Source: an uncultured Parabacteroides sp.
Lineage (GTDB): Bacteria > Bacteroidota > Bacteroidia > Bacteroidales > Tannerellaceae
Direction: 5' to 3'
Assembly: GCA_900552415.1 (NCBI GenBank)
Contig: USAD01000024.1
Location: forward strand, 1 to 16,066
Length of the DNA: 16,066 nt
Below, in pieces: positions 678 to 9,609 of this stretch (position 1 is the first letter of the stretch; each line of letters starts with the position of its first letter). The notes beneath the pieces were generated by a model that did not search any database, had not been told where the DNA came from, and saw only the letters and a program-made list of their open reading frames with translations. Both the position numbers and the translations under genes were made by a program.

Positions 678-2186
678 TTAAATCCTAAACCAAATACTTA
701 CCAACTGCTTCCGAATCTCTCCCTCTAATTGATGCGACTTCTCAAACAATGTTGATAGCTCACTAGTGAGGCGGGACATTTTCTCTTCGAAAGGCTCGCC
801 GTCGTCTTCGGCCTCTGCGATGCCCACATAGCGGCCGGGCGTAAGAATATAATCCTGCTTGGCCACGTCGTCGAGTGTAGCCACGGCGCAATATCCTTTT
901 TCAGGTTCCAATGTGCCTGCTTCGAAGTCTTCGAAGGTGCGGGCGATACGCTGAATGTCTTTTTCTTCGTCCAGCTCACGCAACTTGCGGGTGACCATTG
1001 TTCCCATCTGGCGGGCATCGATGAAAAGGATTTTCCCCGGCTGCTTCTTGTTGCGGTTCAGGAACCACAACGAAACGGGAATACCTGTCGTATAGAACAA
1101 CTGCGAAGGCATTGCCACGATACCTTCCACCAAATCGGCCTTGATGATGTTCTCACGAATACTGCCTTCGCCGCCCGACTGTGAAGAGAGCGAACCATTG
1201 GCCAGCACCATGCCGATGCGGCCACGAGGCGAGAGGTGATAAATCATGTGCTGCAACCAGGCAAAGTTGGCATTGCCCGACGGCGGAATACCGTAACGCC
1301 AGCGCGGGTCGTCTTGCAGCTTGTCGGCACCCCAGTCGCTCAAGTTGAAAGGCGGATTGGCTAAGATATAATCGGCTTTCAGCGTAGGATGTTGGTCGTC
1401 GAAGAATGTATCGGCGGCAAATTGACCCAAGTCTGCCTCAATGCCACGTATGGCCAGGTTCATCTGTGCCATCTTCCAGGTCGTTGGATTGCTATCCTGT
1501 CCGAATACGGAGATGTTATTGAGACTGCCCTGATGTTCGTTGATGAATCGGGCCGACTGCACAAACATGCCGCCCGAACCGCAGCATGGGTCGTACACGC
1601 GACCGCTAAAAGGTTGCAACACCTCGACCAGCGTGCGCACAATGCAGGCAGGCGTGTAGAATTCGCCAGCCAGCTTGCCTTCGGCTTCGGCAAACTTCGA
1701 GAGGCAGTATTCGTAGGTGCGGCCCAGAATGTCTTTCGTGTCGCCATGCTCTTTCATCTGAATGTTGGTGAAAAGGTCCACCACATCTCCCAAGCGGCGT
1801 TTGTCTAATTCGGGGCGGGCAAAATTCTTGGGCAAAATACCTTTCAGGCGCGGATTCTCTTTCTCGATCAGGCGCATAGCATTGTCGATCGTAGTACCCA
1901 CTTCAGGCGTATGAGCCGCTTTGGCCACAATCTGCCAGCGAGCTTCTTGCGGCACGAAGAAAATGTTATCGGCCGTGTATTCGTCCTTGTCTTCCTCGAA
2001 GCCGTCGCCTTCTTCCTTCAGTTCGTTATATTTTACCTCAAAGCGATCCGATATATACTTCAGGAAAATCAGTCCCAGCACCACGGATTTATATTCCGAA
2101 GCGTCAAGATTTCCCCGCAACAAGTCTGCCGCCTTCCATATTTCTTTCTCAAAACCAATATCTGCTGTATTATTTGTCTTTGCCAT
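678..2186 (-). CDS. hsdM: Type I restriction-modification DNA methyltransferase subunit HsdM
   Basis: HsdM is the N6-adenine methyltransferase subunit; with HsdS it methylates the host target site using S-adenosylmethionine. The protein has 502 residues, a normal length for the family. The N-terminal helical domain (about 10-150, starting FEKEIWKAADLLRGNLD) matches the HsdM N-terminal fold. The catalytic domain holds the AdoMet motif DPCCGSGG (199-206) and the catalytic motif NPPF (277-280). The C-terminal tail (about 465-495) is a charged helix of the type that contacts HsdS. The start at 2186 is preceded by TAGGAA and begins the conserved N-terminal domain. It is the first gene of the unit; hsdS follows after 15 bases, and hsdR, if present, would lie left of the window. 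GC content is intermediate between hsdS and the plus-strand genes. Confidence 0.96.
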   Translation of the reverse strand: MAKTNNTADIGFEKEIWKAADLLRGNLDASEYKSVVLGLIFLKYISDRFEVKYNELKEEGDGFEEDKDEYTADNIFFVPQEARWQIVAKAAHTPEVGTTIDNAMRLIEKENPRLKGILPKNFARPELDKRRLGDVVDLFTNIQMKEHGDTKDILGRTYEYCLSKFAEAEGKLAGEFYTPACIVRTLVEVLQPFSGRVYDPCCGSGGMFVQSARFINEHQGSLNNISVFGQDSNPTTWKMAQMNLAIRGIEADLGQFAADTFFDDQHPTLKADYILANPPFNLSDWGADKLQDDPRWRYGIPPSGNANFAWLQHMIYHLSPRGRIGMVLANGSLSSQSGGEGSIRENIIKADLVEGIVAMPSQLFYTTGIPVSLWFLNRNKKQPGKILFIDARQMGTMVTRKLRELDEEKDIQRIARTFEDFEAGTLEPEKGYCAVATLDDVAKQDYILTPGRYVGIAEAEDDGEPFEEKMSRLTSELSTLFEKSHQLEGEIRKQLVSIWFRI

Positions 2187-5547: not shown

Positions 5548-5949
5548 ATGGGCATTAAGCGCTTTGGGGTCTCGCTGGAGGATTTCCTGCTGGAGTCGTT
5601 GGATCAGTATGTGATAGAGAATGGCTTCGCCAACCGCTCGCAAGCGATCCGTTTCTTGATCGAGAAGAATGTCGCCGAGAAGAAATGGCTTTGCGATCAC
5701 CTGGTGGCGGGGACGATCATCATCATGTACGACCAGGCCAAGAAGGAGATCTTCTCCAAGATCAACCTGATCGAGCAGGCCTACAAGGAGGTGATCCTTT
5801 CCTCTTCCCAATATTATATCAATCAGAATTTCTGCCTGCGCATCGTGACCGTGATGGGCGTGGCGCATACCCTGACGGAATTGGCGGACCAGCTGACCGC
5901 CATCAAGGGGATCAAGCATGGAAAACTGGTGATGAGCCGGGCGGATTAG
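5548..5949 (+). CDS. NikR-family ribbon-helix-helix regulator with altered metal site
   Basis: NikR proteins are tetrameric DNA-binding regulators: an N-terminal ribbon-helix-helix pair reads DNA and a C-terminal ACT-like domain binds nickel. This 133-residue protein has both parts. The DNA-binding domain is residues 3-45 (RFGVSLEDFLLESLDQY, then GFANRSQAIR); the regulatory domain is 53-130, ending with the conserved GIKHGKL. Aligned on Cys96 (E. coli Cys95), the other E. coli nickel ligands His76, His87 and His89 fall on Gln77, Gln88 and Tyr90. The canonical square-planar nickel site is therefore not present, and the effector may be another metal or ligand. It follows xpt by 33 bases, has a strong ribosome site, and its stop codon lies inside its terminator. 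Two operator-like sites of NikR spacing lie just downstream, in front of a TonB-dependent receptor. Family certain; nickel response doubtful, so no nikR symbol is given. Confidence 0.88.
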   Translation: MGIKRFGVSLEDFLLESLDQYVIENGFANRSQAIRFLIEKNVAEKKWLCDHLVAGTIIIMYDQAKKEIFSKINLIEQAYKEVILSSSQYYINQNFCLRIVTVMGVAHTLTELADQLTAIKGIKHGKLVMSRAD

Positions 5950-5961
5950 CCCGTTTTTTTT
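5938..5961 (+). terminator. Intrinsic terminator overlapping the stop codon of the NikR-like gene
   Basis: CGGGC (5938-5942) pairs with GCCCG (5949-5953) around a 6-base loop, followed by eight T (5954-5961). The TAG stop (5947-5949) spans the end of the loop and the first base of the 3' arm. It ends the upstream unit before the operator region. Confidence 0.75.
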
Positions 5962-6012
5962 GGCGCCAAGGTGACACGATTCAAGCGTTTCGTGTTATTT
6001 GGCGCCAAAAAA
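5954..6012. repeat. Nested palindrome: two TTGGCGCCAA boxes around operator 1
   Basis: The 10-bp palindrome TTGGCGCCAA occurs at 5960-5969 and 5999-6008, flanked outside by a T-run (5954-5961) and an A-run (6007-6012). The boxes are placed symmetrically around the centre of operator 1, so the block forms an imperfect dyad of about 59 bp. As RNA it folds into TTTTTTGGCGCCAA with its complement, an internal loop and an ACACGA/TCGTGT stem with a 10-base loop. Confidence 0.6.
5971..5998. promoter_or_regulatory. Putative operator 1 for the NikR-like regulator
   Basis: GTGACA (5971-5976), 16 bases, TGTTAT (5993-5998). The 6-16-6 geometry equals that of the E. coli NikR operator (GTATGA-N16-TCATAC), with different half-sites. 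The site lies between the regulator's terminator and the receptor gene. Confidence 0.6.
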
Positions 6013-6024
6013 TAGGCCGTTAGG

Positions 6025-6052
6025 GTGGCACGATCCGAAGGGTTCATGTCAC
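6025..6052. promoter_or_regulatory. Putative operator 2 for the NikR-like regulator
   Basis: GTGGCA (6025-6030), 16 bases, TGTCAC (6047-6052), with a flanking G and C extending the dyad. Its centre is 54 bp from that of operator 1, close to five helical turns, and the two sites share many spacer bases (CGATyC, GTTC). It ends 36 bases before the receptor start, a good position for repression. Confidence 0.6.
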
Positions 6053-6088
6053 CGAATGGCGATGAATAGTGATTATAAAAGTCGAAAA

Positions 6089-7984
6089 ATGAATAAGATG
6101 AGAAAAAATGTACTTTTGGCCTTCGGGCTTATGTTGATGCCATCCGCTTTCGCCGCGAATCCCGTGGAAGAGCCGGATAGCCTGATTAACCTTCAAGGAG
6201 TCGTTATCTCGGCGAACAAGATCCGGGTCAACCGGAGCAGCGTGCCGCTGACCATCTCGGTGATCGACCAGCAAGCGATAGAAGCCAGTAGCGAGTCGGC
6301 CTTGCTGCCGGTGCTTTCCGAGCGTGTGCCGGGTCTTTTCGTGACGGAGAAGGGCATCACGGGATTTGGCGTCTCTGAGGGCGCCGCCGGAACGATCAAC
6401 ATTCGTGGCGTTGGTAGCGGCAACAAGGTGCTGGTCCTTTTTGACGGGCAGCCCCAATGGGCCGGCCTGTTCGGCCATTCCCTGCCGGATACTTATGTGG
6501 CCTCGGACGTGGAGCGTGTCGAGGTGATCCGTGGTCCGGGCTCGTTGCTTTATGGCTCGAATGCGATGGGCGGTGTCATCAACATCATCACACGGAAGCA
6601 TCACCAAGCGGGCAGACGGACGCGGGCACGGGTGATGTACGGCTCATACAATACGCAGAAGTATATGGTGAACAATGGTTATAACGTCGGCAATTTCAGC
6701 AGCTTTGTCTCGATCAACCACGACCGGACGGACGGGCACCGGCCCCACTCGGATTTCCGGATCACGAACGGCTTCGCCAACCTGGGCTATCGCTTTAACG
6801 ACCATTTCAAGCTGACCGGCGACGTGAGCCTGGCGAAGTACAAGTTCCAGAATCCGGGCAAGACCTATTCCCCGATGATCGATAACAAGATGAACATCTT
6901 CCGCGGGACGGCCTCGCTGGGCTTCGAGAACCATTTCGAGAAGGCGAGTGGCGCCGTGCAGCTCTTTTACAACTGGGGAAACCACAAGATCAACGACGGT
7001 TATCAGGCGAGCGAGCAGCCGCAGGACTACCTGTTCCGCTCGACGGACCAGAACCTGGGCGTCCTGCTCTATGAGTCGTTCCATCTGTTCGAGGGCAACA
7101 CACTGACGGTCGGCATCGATTACAAGAACTGGGGCGGACACGCCTGGAACGACATGAACGATGGGAGTAAGGAGGAGATCATCGACAAGAGCATCAACGA
7201 GACAGCCGGCTACGTCATCATGCAGCAGGAGCTGTTCGACCTCTTGAGCCTGAACGCCGGCGTGCGTTATGAGCATAACAGCGCCTATGGTGGCGAATGG
7301 GTGCCGCAGGGCGGATTGACGGTGCGTCCTTTCGAGGGAAACACGATCCGCGGCTCCATCTCGAAAGGCTTCCGTAGCCCGAACATCCGCGAGTTGTATA
7401 TGTGGGGCACCAAGAACCCGGACCTGCTGCCGGAGAGCATGATCAATTACGAGGTCGCGATCAGCCAGAACTTTCTGGACAACCGCCTGTTCGCCGAGCT
7501 GACCGCCTTCTTTATCGACGGCAAGAACCTGATCGTGGCCGACCGGGTCAACAGCAACTCCGAGTTCCCGAAGATCAACCGCAACCTGGGCACCTTCACG
7601 AACAAGGGTATCGAGTTCGAGACACGCTACCAGATCCTGAACAACCTGAGCGTCGACGCGAACTACAGCTATCTGCACATGAGCAAGGCGATCCCGGGCG
7701 CGCCCGAGCATAAGCTTTACGCGGGCGTCTCGTACGCTCCGGGCCGTTTCTCGTTCAACGTCAGTGTCCAGTCCATCTTTGGCCTCTACACGGACGACGC
7801 CTGCAAGAAAGAGGAGGATTATACGACCCTCAACGCCCGGGCGGCCTATCGTTTCGGCTCTGTCGACAAGGGATTGAGCCTCTTCGTGAAGGGCGAGAAC
7901 CTGACGGCGACCCGCTACGAGATCAACGACGGCTTCCCGATGCCGAAGGCGATATTCATGGGCGGCGTAGAGGTGACTTTCTGA
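6089..7984 (+). CDS. TonB-dependent outer-membrane receptor
   Basis: This is a gated outer-membrane beta-barrel that imports a scarce substrate (metal chelate, heme, cobalamin or similar) with energy from TonB. From ATG 6089 it has 631 residues. A signal peptide covers 1-22 (MNKMRKNVLLAFGLML core, cleavage after AFA). A likely TonB box follows at about 33-40 (INLQGVVI). The plug domain spans about 48-170, with TINIRGVGSGNKVLVLFDG, VERVEVIRGPGSLLYGSNAMGG and INIITRK in the order typical of the family. The 22-stranded barrel fills the rest and ends in phenylalanine (VEVTF), the usual outer-membrane insertion signal. Histidines in the early barrel (HH at 171-172 and DGHRPHSDF) could bind metal, but that is only suggestive. 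ATG 6098 is an alternative start. The two operator-like sites upstream imply control by the NikR-like protein. Substrate unknown; metal uptake is the leading guess. Confidence 0.93.
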   Translation: MNKMRKNVLLAFGLMLMPSAFAANPVEEPDSLINLQGVVISANKIRVNRSSVPLTISVIDQQAIEASSESALLPVLSERVPGLFVTEKGITGFGVSEGAAGTINIRGVGSGNKVLVLFDGQPQWAGLFGHSLPDTYVASDVERVEVIRGPGSLLYGSNAMGGVINIITRKHHQAGRRTRARVMYGSYNTQKYMVNNGYNVGNFSSFVSINHDRTDGHRPHSDFRITNGFANLGYRFNDHFKLTGDVSLAKYKFQNPGKTYSPMIDNKMNIFRGTASLGFENHFEKASGAVQLFYNWGNHKINDGYQASEQPQDYLFRSTDQNLGVLLYESFHLFEGNTLTVGIDYKNWGGHAWNDMNDGSKEEIIDKSINETAGYVIMQQELFDLLSLNAGVRYEHNSAYGGEWVPQGGLTVRPFEGNTIRGSISKGFRSPNIRELYMWGTKNPDLLPESMINYEVAISQNFLDNRLFAELTAFFIDGKNLIVADRVNSNSEFPKINRNLGTFTNKGIEFETRYQILNNLSVDANYSYLHMSKAIPGAPEHKLYAGVSYAPGRFSFNVSVQSIFGLYTDDACKKEEDYTTLNARAAYRFGSVDKGLSLFVKGENLTATRYEINDGFPMPKAIFMGGVEVTF

Positions 7985-8070: not shown

Positions 8071-9609
8071 ATGGAACAACATACGCACAAGATTAACAAG
8101 GTAGCGATACGCACTTTGCAACTTTCGGATTATGAGCAGCTCTCGCAATCATTCAGACGAGTTTATGCGGATGGGTCAGATGTCTTTTGGACCCGCGAGC
8201 AAATAGAGAAACTGATCACGATCTTCCCGGAAGGGCAGATCGTGACGGTTGTCGGTAACAAGATCGTCGGCTGCGCCTTGGCGATTATCGTCGATTATGA
8301 CCTGGTCAAGAACGACCATACTTATGCGATGGTCACAGGCAAAGAGACCTTTAGCACCCACAATCCCAAAGGGAACATCCTTTATGGCATCGAGGTCTTC
8401 ATCCATCCGGATTATCGTGGATTGCGTTTGGCCCGGCGCATGTACGACTACCGCAAGGAGCTGTGTGAGAGCTTGAACCTGAAGGCGATCATGTTTGGTG
8501 GCCGTATTCCCAATTATCACAAGTATGCGAAGGAGTTGCGCCCCAAGGAGTATATCGACAAGGTCCGCAAGAAGGAGATCTATGATCCGGTGCTGACCTT
8601 CCAGCTTTCGAACGATTTCCACGTCCGGAAGGTGATGACCAATTATTTGCCCAACGACGAGGAATCGATGCACTACGCGACCCTCTTGCAATGGGATAAT
8701 ATCTATTATACGCCGAAGCCGGAGATCGTGACGACTAAGTCGACAGTCCGCATCGGATTGGTGCAATGGCAGATGCGTCCTTACAAGAGTTTGAATGACG
8801 TGTTCGAGCAGGTGGAGTTCTTCGTGGATGCCGTATCGGACTACAAGAGCGATTTCATCCTTTTCCCGGAATATTTCAACGCCCCGTTGATGGCCAAGTT
8901 CAACCACATGAGCGAGTCGGAGGCCATCCGTGAGCTGGCGCAATACACGAACGACATCCGCGACCGGTTCATCAACCTGGCGATCAGCTATAACATCAAT
9001 ATCATCACCGGAAGTATGCCGTTGCTGAAGGAGAACGGGTTGTACAACGTCGGGTTCCTTTGCCGCCGTGACGGTACTTACGAGACATACGAAAAGGTTC
9101 ATATCACGCCCGACGAGAGCAAGAGCTGGGGTCTTTCCGGCGGAAGCGCCGTCAAGACGTTCCAGACCGATTGCGCCAAGATCGGTATCCTGATCTGTTA
9201 CGACGTGGAGTTCCCCGAGTTGTCGCGCATCATGGCCGACCAGGGAATGCAGATCCTCTTCGTGCCATTCCTGACCGATACGCAGAATGGCTATTCGCGT
9301 GTCCGCGTCTGCGCTCAGGCCCGGGCGATCGAGAACGAGTGTTTCGTGGCCATCGCCGGCAGCGTGGGCAATTTGCCGCGTGTGCATAACATGGACATTC
9401 AATATGCCCAGTCGGGTGTCTTCACGCCTTGCGACTTCGCCTTCCCGACCGATGGAAAGCGCGCGGAGGCGACACCGAACACGGAGATGATCCTCGTCTC
9501 GGACGTGGATCTGGACCTGCTGAGCGAGCTCCATACTTATGGAAGCGTGCGCAACCTGAAGGATCGCCGTTCGGATTTATATGAGGTTAAATTGAAGAAA
9601 AGAAATTAA
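8071..9609 (+). CDS. Fusion of a GNAT acetyltransferase and a carbon-nitrogen hydrolase
   Basis: The 512-residue protein joins two enzymes. Residues 10-215 are a GNAT domain; the acetyl-CoA-binding motif A is at about 105-130 (YGIEVFIHPDYRGLRLARRM), with arginine where the usual second glycine of the Q/R-x-x-G-x-G/A loop sits. Residues 225-490 are a nitrilase-superfamily amidohydrolase with the complete triad: Glu267 in FPEYFN, Lys342 in YEKVHI and Cys376 in ILICYDVEFPE. The hydrolase would split an amide or nitrile C-N bond; the acetyltransferase would act on an amine. The same domain pair is known from Bacillus YhcX-like proteins, annotated as bifunctional but without a settled substrate. 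The start is preceded by TAGGT. The stop is one base before the next ATG, so translation is probably coupled. Cytoplasmic, no signal peptide. Confidence 0.93.
   Translation: MEQHTHKINKVAIRTLQLSDYEQLSQSFRRVYADGSDVFWTREQIEKLITIFPEGQIVTVVGNKIVGCALAIIVDYDLVKNDHTYAMVTGKETFSTHNPKGNILYGIEVFIHPDYRGLRLARRMYDYRKELCESLNLKAIMFGGRIPNYHKYAKELRPKEYIDKVRKKEIYDPVLTFQLSNDFHVRKVMTNYLPNDEESMHYATLLQWDNIYYTPKPEIVTTKSTVRIGLVQWQMRPYKSLNDVFEQVEFFVDAVSDYKSDFILFPEYFNAPLMAKFNHMSESEAIRELAQYTNDIRDRFINLAISYNINIITGSMPLLKENGLYNVGFLCRRDGTYETYEKVHITPDESKSWGLSGGSAVKTFQTDCAKIGILICYDVEFPELSRIMADQGMQILFVPFLTDTQNGYSRVRVCAQARAIENECFVAIAGSVGNLPRVHNMDIQYAQSGVFTPCDFAFPTDGKRAEATPNTEMILVSDVDLDLLSELHTYGSVRNLKDRRSDLYEVKLKKRN

Follow-up and report, generated by a model that had tools for sequence, protein, structure and literature searches.

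A NikR-family regulator with an altered nickel site and a putative operator before a TonB-dependent receptor in Parabacteroides and its relatives

A close counterpart of the sites considered here is the NikR signal of delta-proteobacteria, which was reported in 2004 as GTGTTAC-[N13/14]-GTAACAC; the same paper gives the opposite order, GTAACAC-N13-GTGTTAC, for Desulfotalea psychrophila and a mismatched form of it upstream of nikK in Desulfovibrio vulgaris (Rodionov et al., PMC545781). According to the excerpt of that paper used here, the targets are nickel ABC transporter genes and hydrogenase. A second precedent is Helicobacter pylori, where a nickel-responsive NikR represses the TonB receptors FecA3 and FrpB4 (PMC11247825). 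The part used of a further article (PMC2667541) makes no mention of TonB. Control of a TonB receptor by NikR and the half-site GTGTTAC/GTAACAC are already known. A 2010 paper also reportedly describes a Geobacter uraniireducens NikR with the same half-site. For Bacteroidota, a NikR-TonB operator is named in no title or abstract opening found in a literature search of open-licence papers. The locus analyzed here and its relatives share half-site, spacer and reversed orientation with the delta-proteobacterial regulon (PMC545781, as excerpted), but differ from it in the target, a TonB receptor, in direct-repeat arrangements, which that excerpt does not mention, and in a sensor that lacks three nickel ligands. 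With H. pylori they share the putative placement of a TonB-type receptor under NikR, although lineage and receptors are different and the H. pylori protein responds to nickel (PMC11247825, in part). In the open-licence literature searched, partly in excerpt, two features were not found: a clade of NikR proteins that retains operator and target with its nickel site dismantled, and half-sites arranged as direct repeats.

The window, i.e. the whole stretch of 16,066 nucleotides analyzed from an uncultured Parabacteroides sp., carries on its plus strand a gene that reads from sequence alone as proline-tRNA-synthetase-like, followed by xpt, a NikR-like gene and, after a gap of 139 bp between the regulator's stop codon and the ATG at 6089, a gene for a TonB-dependent receptor (Table 1). 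Inside this gap lie both dyads that the earlier note had pointed out, present exactly as it described them. An intrinsic-terminator search returned two overlapping sites at the end of the regulator gene (mean of 0.6 in shuffles), and because this terminator-like hairpin with its T8 tract lies over the end of the NikR-like gene, the receptor looks like a separate transcription unit, probably divided from the regulator transcript by this element. A sigma-70 promoter scan found none. The best NCBIfam match of the receptor is the B12 receptor model TIGR01779, at 151.4 bits against a cut-off of 599.7, which is far below the curated equivalog score for BtuB, the TonB-dependent B12 receptor. After the receptor, at 8071-9609, a GNAT acetyltransferase and a carbon-nitrogen hydrolase are fused in one reading frame, a fusion without match in the DNA around 80 relative loci (best 80 of 227). 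Near the edge of the window (678-2186, minus strand), an HsdM-type N6 DNA methylase of a type I restriction system is encoded (PF02384, PF12161).

Table 1. Regulator, receptor and intervening elements in the window
Feature	Position	Strand	Basis
NikR-family regulator, 133 aa	5548..5949	+	ribbon-helix-helix N-terminus and NikR_C domain
Terminator-like hairpin and T8 tract, spanning the regulator stop codon	5938..5961	+	intrinsic-terminator search
Half-site 1a, GTGACAC	5971..5977	+	pattern match
Half-site 1b, + strand reads GTGTTAT (consensus GTGTTAC, 1 mismatch)	5992..5998	-	pattern match
Half-site 2a, GTGGCAC	6025..6031	+	pattern match
Half-site 2b, + strand reads ATGTCAC (consensus GTGTCAC, 1 mismatch)	6046..6052	-	pattern match
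TonB-dependent receptor, 631 aa, plug and beta-barrel	6089..7984	+	domain and NCBIfam profiles

The two 28-bp sites, GTGACACGATTCAAGCGTTTCGTGTTAT at 5971-5998 and GTGGCACGATCCGAAGGGTTCATGTCAC at 6025-6052, lie 54 bp apart and match the pattern of the earlier note without mismatch. When up to two mismatches are allowed, 7 matches are obtained against 4.66 expected from shuffling, so that loose matches are uninformative and the signal rests on the two exact dyads. The 6-16-6 layout initially assigned to them needs revision: the dyads are real, but a better unit is 7-14-7, with half-sites GTRRCAC and their complement GTGYYAC placed 21 bp apart, start to start, which gives the half-site pair about two helical turns apart that is characteristic of NikR. 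Both window sites deviate from this consensus at a single base, which in either case lies in the second half. The consensus was drawn partly from the loci first tested, and later tests covered other sequence. Site 1 is moreover flanked by two copies of the palindrome TTGGCGCCAA (5960-5969 and 5999-6008), which form, together with T and A tracts, a perfect 14-bp inverted repeat around it; no such pair was noticed in the gaps of the relatives compared by eye. Double dyads are also present in L036, offset by 54 bp as in the window, and in L020 and L021, offset by 32 bp.

Related loci were collected by a profile scan of genome contigs with an alignment of close homologs, and the 80 loci used are the best 80 of 227 relatives; in 50 of them, the regulator and a receptor ortholog share a strand and are no more than 800 bp apart. 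Conservation of the dyads next to receptor orthologs, the check proposed along with the original observation, was found in these 50 loci and the window: 38 of the 51 regulator-receptor gaps contain an exact pair 20-21 bp apart and 49 a pair with at most one mismatch (best 80 of 227; means of 0.0 and 0.04 in dinucleotide shuffles), in related species whose counts are not independent events. In the two misses, L040 and L057, the second half has two mismatches, as judged by eye. Exact pairs at 21 bp are inverted (><) in 27 loci and direct in 8 (>>) and 3 (<<) loci, and all remaining spacings between 8 and 60 bp are represented by exact pairs in 1 or 2 loci each (51 gaps, best 80 of 227). The 30 loci in which no receptor follows the regulator have no pair up to 300 bp after it (0/30; best 80 of 227), with at least 800 bp of downstream DNA in 24 of them. 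Twenty-nine of these 30 belong to searchable genomes; at a threshold of E <= 1e-80, the receptor is matched in 23 of these genomes and unmatched in 6. Enough upstream DNA is available for 21 of the 23 receptors, and 15 of these are preceded by an exact pair, 19 by a pair with at most one and 20 with at most two mismatches (shuffle means 0.0 for exact pairs and 0.05 for one mismatch), the exact pairs occurring only at 21 bp. Two of these receptors, L183 and L184, still have the regulator nearby; the best pair upstream of L183 has two mismatches, and L178 has no site in the 164 bp upstream. At paralogous TonB receptor loci, the half-site pair is absent (0/14). By these comparisons, the putative operator goes with the receptor and not with the regulator gene, and the unit of regulator, operator and transporter predicted by the earlier note is well supported, the site being kept before the receptor even without a regulator gene upstream.

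Among 38 genomes of the genus, 14 contain exactly one exact inverted site, which lies at this receptor in 13 of them, and 24 contain none. A reversed-pattern control yielded 13 sites against the 14 real ones; since the two are nearly equal, location alone is informative and the genome-wide number of sites was rejected as evidence. The first 15 genomes searched include 10 with one inverted site each, 9 of which are at the receptor, and 5 direct-repeat sites, all at the receptor; a lone everted site lies away from it, in a 3-kb locus without receptor or regulator homolog.

At this fixed spacing, the orientation of the half-sites varies. The best sites beside the regulator are inverted in 36 cases (one at 20 bp), direct in 13 and unassigned in 2 (n = 51; best 80 of 227), and those away from the regulator with at most one mismatch (n = 19) are inverted in 8, direct in 9 and everted in 2. 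In half-sites of the type GTGNCAC, the direction is shown by the middle base alone, which applies to the first halves in the window, the everted L177 and L182 and the direct L175, L176 and L180; L058 and L080 can also be read as inverted. Direct repeats are unambiguous (GTARCAC or GTGYTAC) in L007, L012, L013, L015, L016, L029, L031, L032, L049, L056, L172, L179 and L185, and clear everted pairs precede the nickel-type nikR genes of L136 and L161. On the tree of regulator and receptor, the arrangement would have changed at least seven times, with three long branches being unsure. A likely reason for the occurrence of either orientation is that the GT-N3-AC half-site has a two-fold symmetry of its own, which matches that of the beta-ribbon in a ribbon-helix-helix dimer. 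Before the receptor of L049 (6424-6493), four half-sites follow each other head-to-tail in exact 21-bp steps, an array that suggests cooperative binding of two tetramers.

The regulator combines an N-terminal ribbon-helix-helix domain with NikR_C, as does NikR, scoring 69.7 bits against PF08753 (cut-off 22) and 20.5 bits against RHH_1, right at the cut-off of 20.5. Its predicted structure, which served fold recognition only (pLDDT 84; below 50 for residues 1-8), has its best matches among NikR structures (2bj3, E 3e-12). The scores remain below the curated equivalog or subfamily levels for NikR, with 102.7 against a cut-off of 105 for the best NCBIfam model and 62.6 against 175 for TIGR02793. 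At the positions equivalent to H76, H87, H89 and C95, the nickel ligands of E. coli NikR, the window protein has Q77, Q88, Y90 and C96; three of the four ligands are gone and the square-planar His/His/His/Cys set is absent. The same positions hold Q in 71, Q in 80, Y in 75 or F in 6, and C in 79 of 81 variant proteins (best 80 of 227 plus the window), against H/H/H/C in 32/32 nickel-type proteins (best 30 of 71 phylum genomes plus two class-search loci). Two residues appear as gains of this clade, C49 and H51: C49 is present in 81/81 variants and 0/32 nickel-type proteins, H51 in 74/81 and H98 in 77/81 variants (best 80 of 227 plus the window), with R in place of H98 in the window regulator. 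In a FastTree phylogeny rooted at the midpoint, the variants group together as one clade (support 0.90) that adjoins the nickel-type protein L098, whose gene has neighbors that read as FmdE-like and transporter-like. The changed effector anticipated by the earlier note agrees with the altered nickel site (Q77/Q88/Y90), whereas the link drawn from it to a changed DNA code is not borne out.

The ordinary nature of this code becomes visible in the relatives with a nickel-type NikR. Of 395 phylum genomes, 11 contain a receptor homolog at E <= 1e-60; two of these homologs (G002 and G008) belong to the variant clade, and five of the nine outside it adjoin a NikR with all four nickel ligands (L157, L158, L160, L161 and L163, the last a partial frame; receptors 37-41% identical by tblastn). 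The pair lies 20-21 bp apart before nikR in all five of these loci, in L157 with one mismatch, and their DNA-reading strand is RFGVS in four and RIGIS in L157; at the receptor homologs whose genomes have no NikR match, the pair is found in 0/4. From these two counts, the unit of operator, nikR and receptor is probably ancestral, and a nickel-NikR/receptor operon is the probable origin of the variant system. The nickel-type units have a homologous receptor and the same half-sites as the variant clade, but differ from it in keeping all four ligands and in an operator that precedes nikR instead of lying between nikR and receptor. Autoregulation was rejected for the variant clade, in which a pair upstream of the regulator occurs in 0/78 loci (2/80 being too short; best 80 of 227). 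Nickel-type nikR genes of Bacteroidota in general carry the pair before their own gene in 9/32 cases, 6 of them exact (shuffle mean 0.1; best 30 of 71 plus two). The reading strand R5-F6-G7-V8-S9 is invariant in 81/81 variants (best 80 of 227 plus the window), and all 32 nickel-type proteins share its R, F and S, 30 of them also having the G, with V or I at position 8. On this comparison, the clade reads DNA by the usual code of the NikR family: NikRs with nickel ligands share both half-site and reading strand, contrary to the idea of a code altered to match the effector, and the half-site that had been taken as new is the GTGTTAC/GTAACAC published for delta-proteobacterial NikR (PMC545781, in part).

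In our judgment it is highly probable that the dyads are operators of the adjacent NikR-family protein, which would repress the separately transcribed TonB receptor through its core promoter. Comparative evidence at the sequence level supports an operator, its strict register, its tie to the receptor and its absence from the four NikR-less homologs; binding by the window regulator, repression and effector are what we infer from it. One tetramer would bridge two GT-N3-AC half-sites at a distance of two helical turns (21 bp); once bound, it would cover the core promoter and repress the receptor's own transcription unit. The motif TAnnTTTG, presumably the Bacteroidota -7 element, starts at site offset 25, inside half-site 2, in 17/51 loci and at offset 24 in one (best 80 of 227), so that a bound regulator would cover the promoter, resulting in repression. 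In the gap of the window itself no TAnnTTTG is seen by eye, which makes the promoter-covering step weaker for the window.

The repeats could instead belong to an RNA structure in the receptor leader, a hairpin attenuator or riboswitch, as the plus strand folds far better at 5940-6065 than shuffles do (z -8.1). This fold is accounted for by the dyads and the 14-bp inverted repeat around site 1, and 5400-6600 matches no Rfam family up to E=1. The 21-bp register is kept by direct repeats too, whose two copies are unable to form a stem with each other (13/49 sites beside the regulator, 10/38 of the exact ones, and 9/19 elsewhere), and the overlap of the site with the promoter-like box in 17/51 loci (best 80 of 227) also speaks against RNA; this reading, hardly credible to us, was rejected on these three grounds. 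Binding of another receptor regulator to the dyads, the NikR-like gene being a mere neighbor, would agree with the loss of the regulator's classical effector site, and is nevertheless very unlikely given the same half-sites before nickel-type nikR genes (9/32; best 30 of 71 plus two), their assignment to NikR in delta-proteobacteria (PMC545781, in the part used), their absence at receptor homologs of NikR-less genomes and the conserved DNA-reading strand of the regulator.

Within the account of a NikR-family operator, the point left to weigh is the trigger of repression. Since three of the four nickel ligands are lost, a different metal or a metal chelate imported by the receptor is the most likely trigger, with chances that are about even. 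Sensing of nickel through a rebuilt site is possible, if doubtful, and a trigger without metal is unlikely. A still nickel-responsive protein that uses unusual ligands, with the receptor importing a nickel chelate, fits the five receptor homologs beside four-ligand NikRs, the retention of C96 in 79/81 variants and the [NiFe]-hydrogenase (PF00374) in 6/15 variant genomes, but it is rendered questionable by the Q at the H87 equivalent in 80/81 and the Y or F at the H89 equivalent in 81/81 variants (best 80 of 227 plus the window). Furthermore, 9/15 variant genomes have the regulator yet neither PF00374 nor urease, whereas PF00374 is found in 7/7 nickel-type genomes and urease in 0/15 variant and 0/7 nickel-type genomes, all counted in genomes of completeness not given. 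No conserved partner gene that would name the substrate was found after the receptor, and the downstream genes differ among loci. In L015 (8422-11181), the receptor is followed by panB and genes for cobyrinate a,c-diamide synthase and cobalamin adenosyltransferase, and the first two of these genes, judged by their opening residues, also occur in L016 and L019; with such genes in 3/50 loci, a cobalt or B12 substrate is a lead only.

Tentatively, a clade of NikR proteins may have swapped its sensor while keeping DNA code and target. In place of the dismantled nickel site, C49-x-H51 and C96, with H98 in most members, would then sense another metal or chelate that the receptor imports, and the self-symmetric half-sites could be flipped singly and still function, which would have allowed inverted and direct arrangements (everted in relatives) to evolve at one fixed spacing. 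Proteins of this clade that are named 'nickel-responsive transcriptional regulator NikR' may lack nickel sensing of the classical kind. With one regulator, one kind of operator and one receptor, the system represents a delimited, testable regulon in Parabacteroides and its kin, and the fixed register of half-sites that can face either way provides a direct prediction on how ribbon-helix-helix tetramers read DNA. A DNA code that is kept while the sensor changes would constitute a natural experiment on effector change in a metalloregulator.
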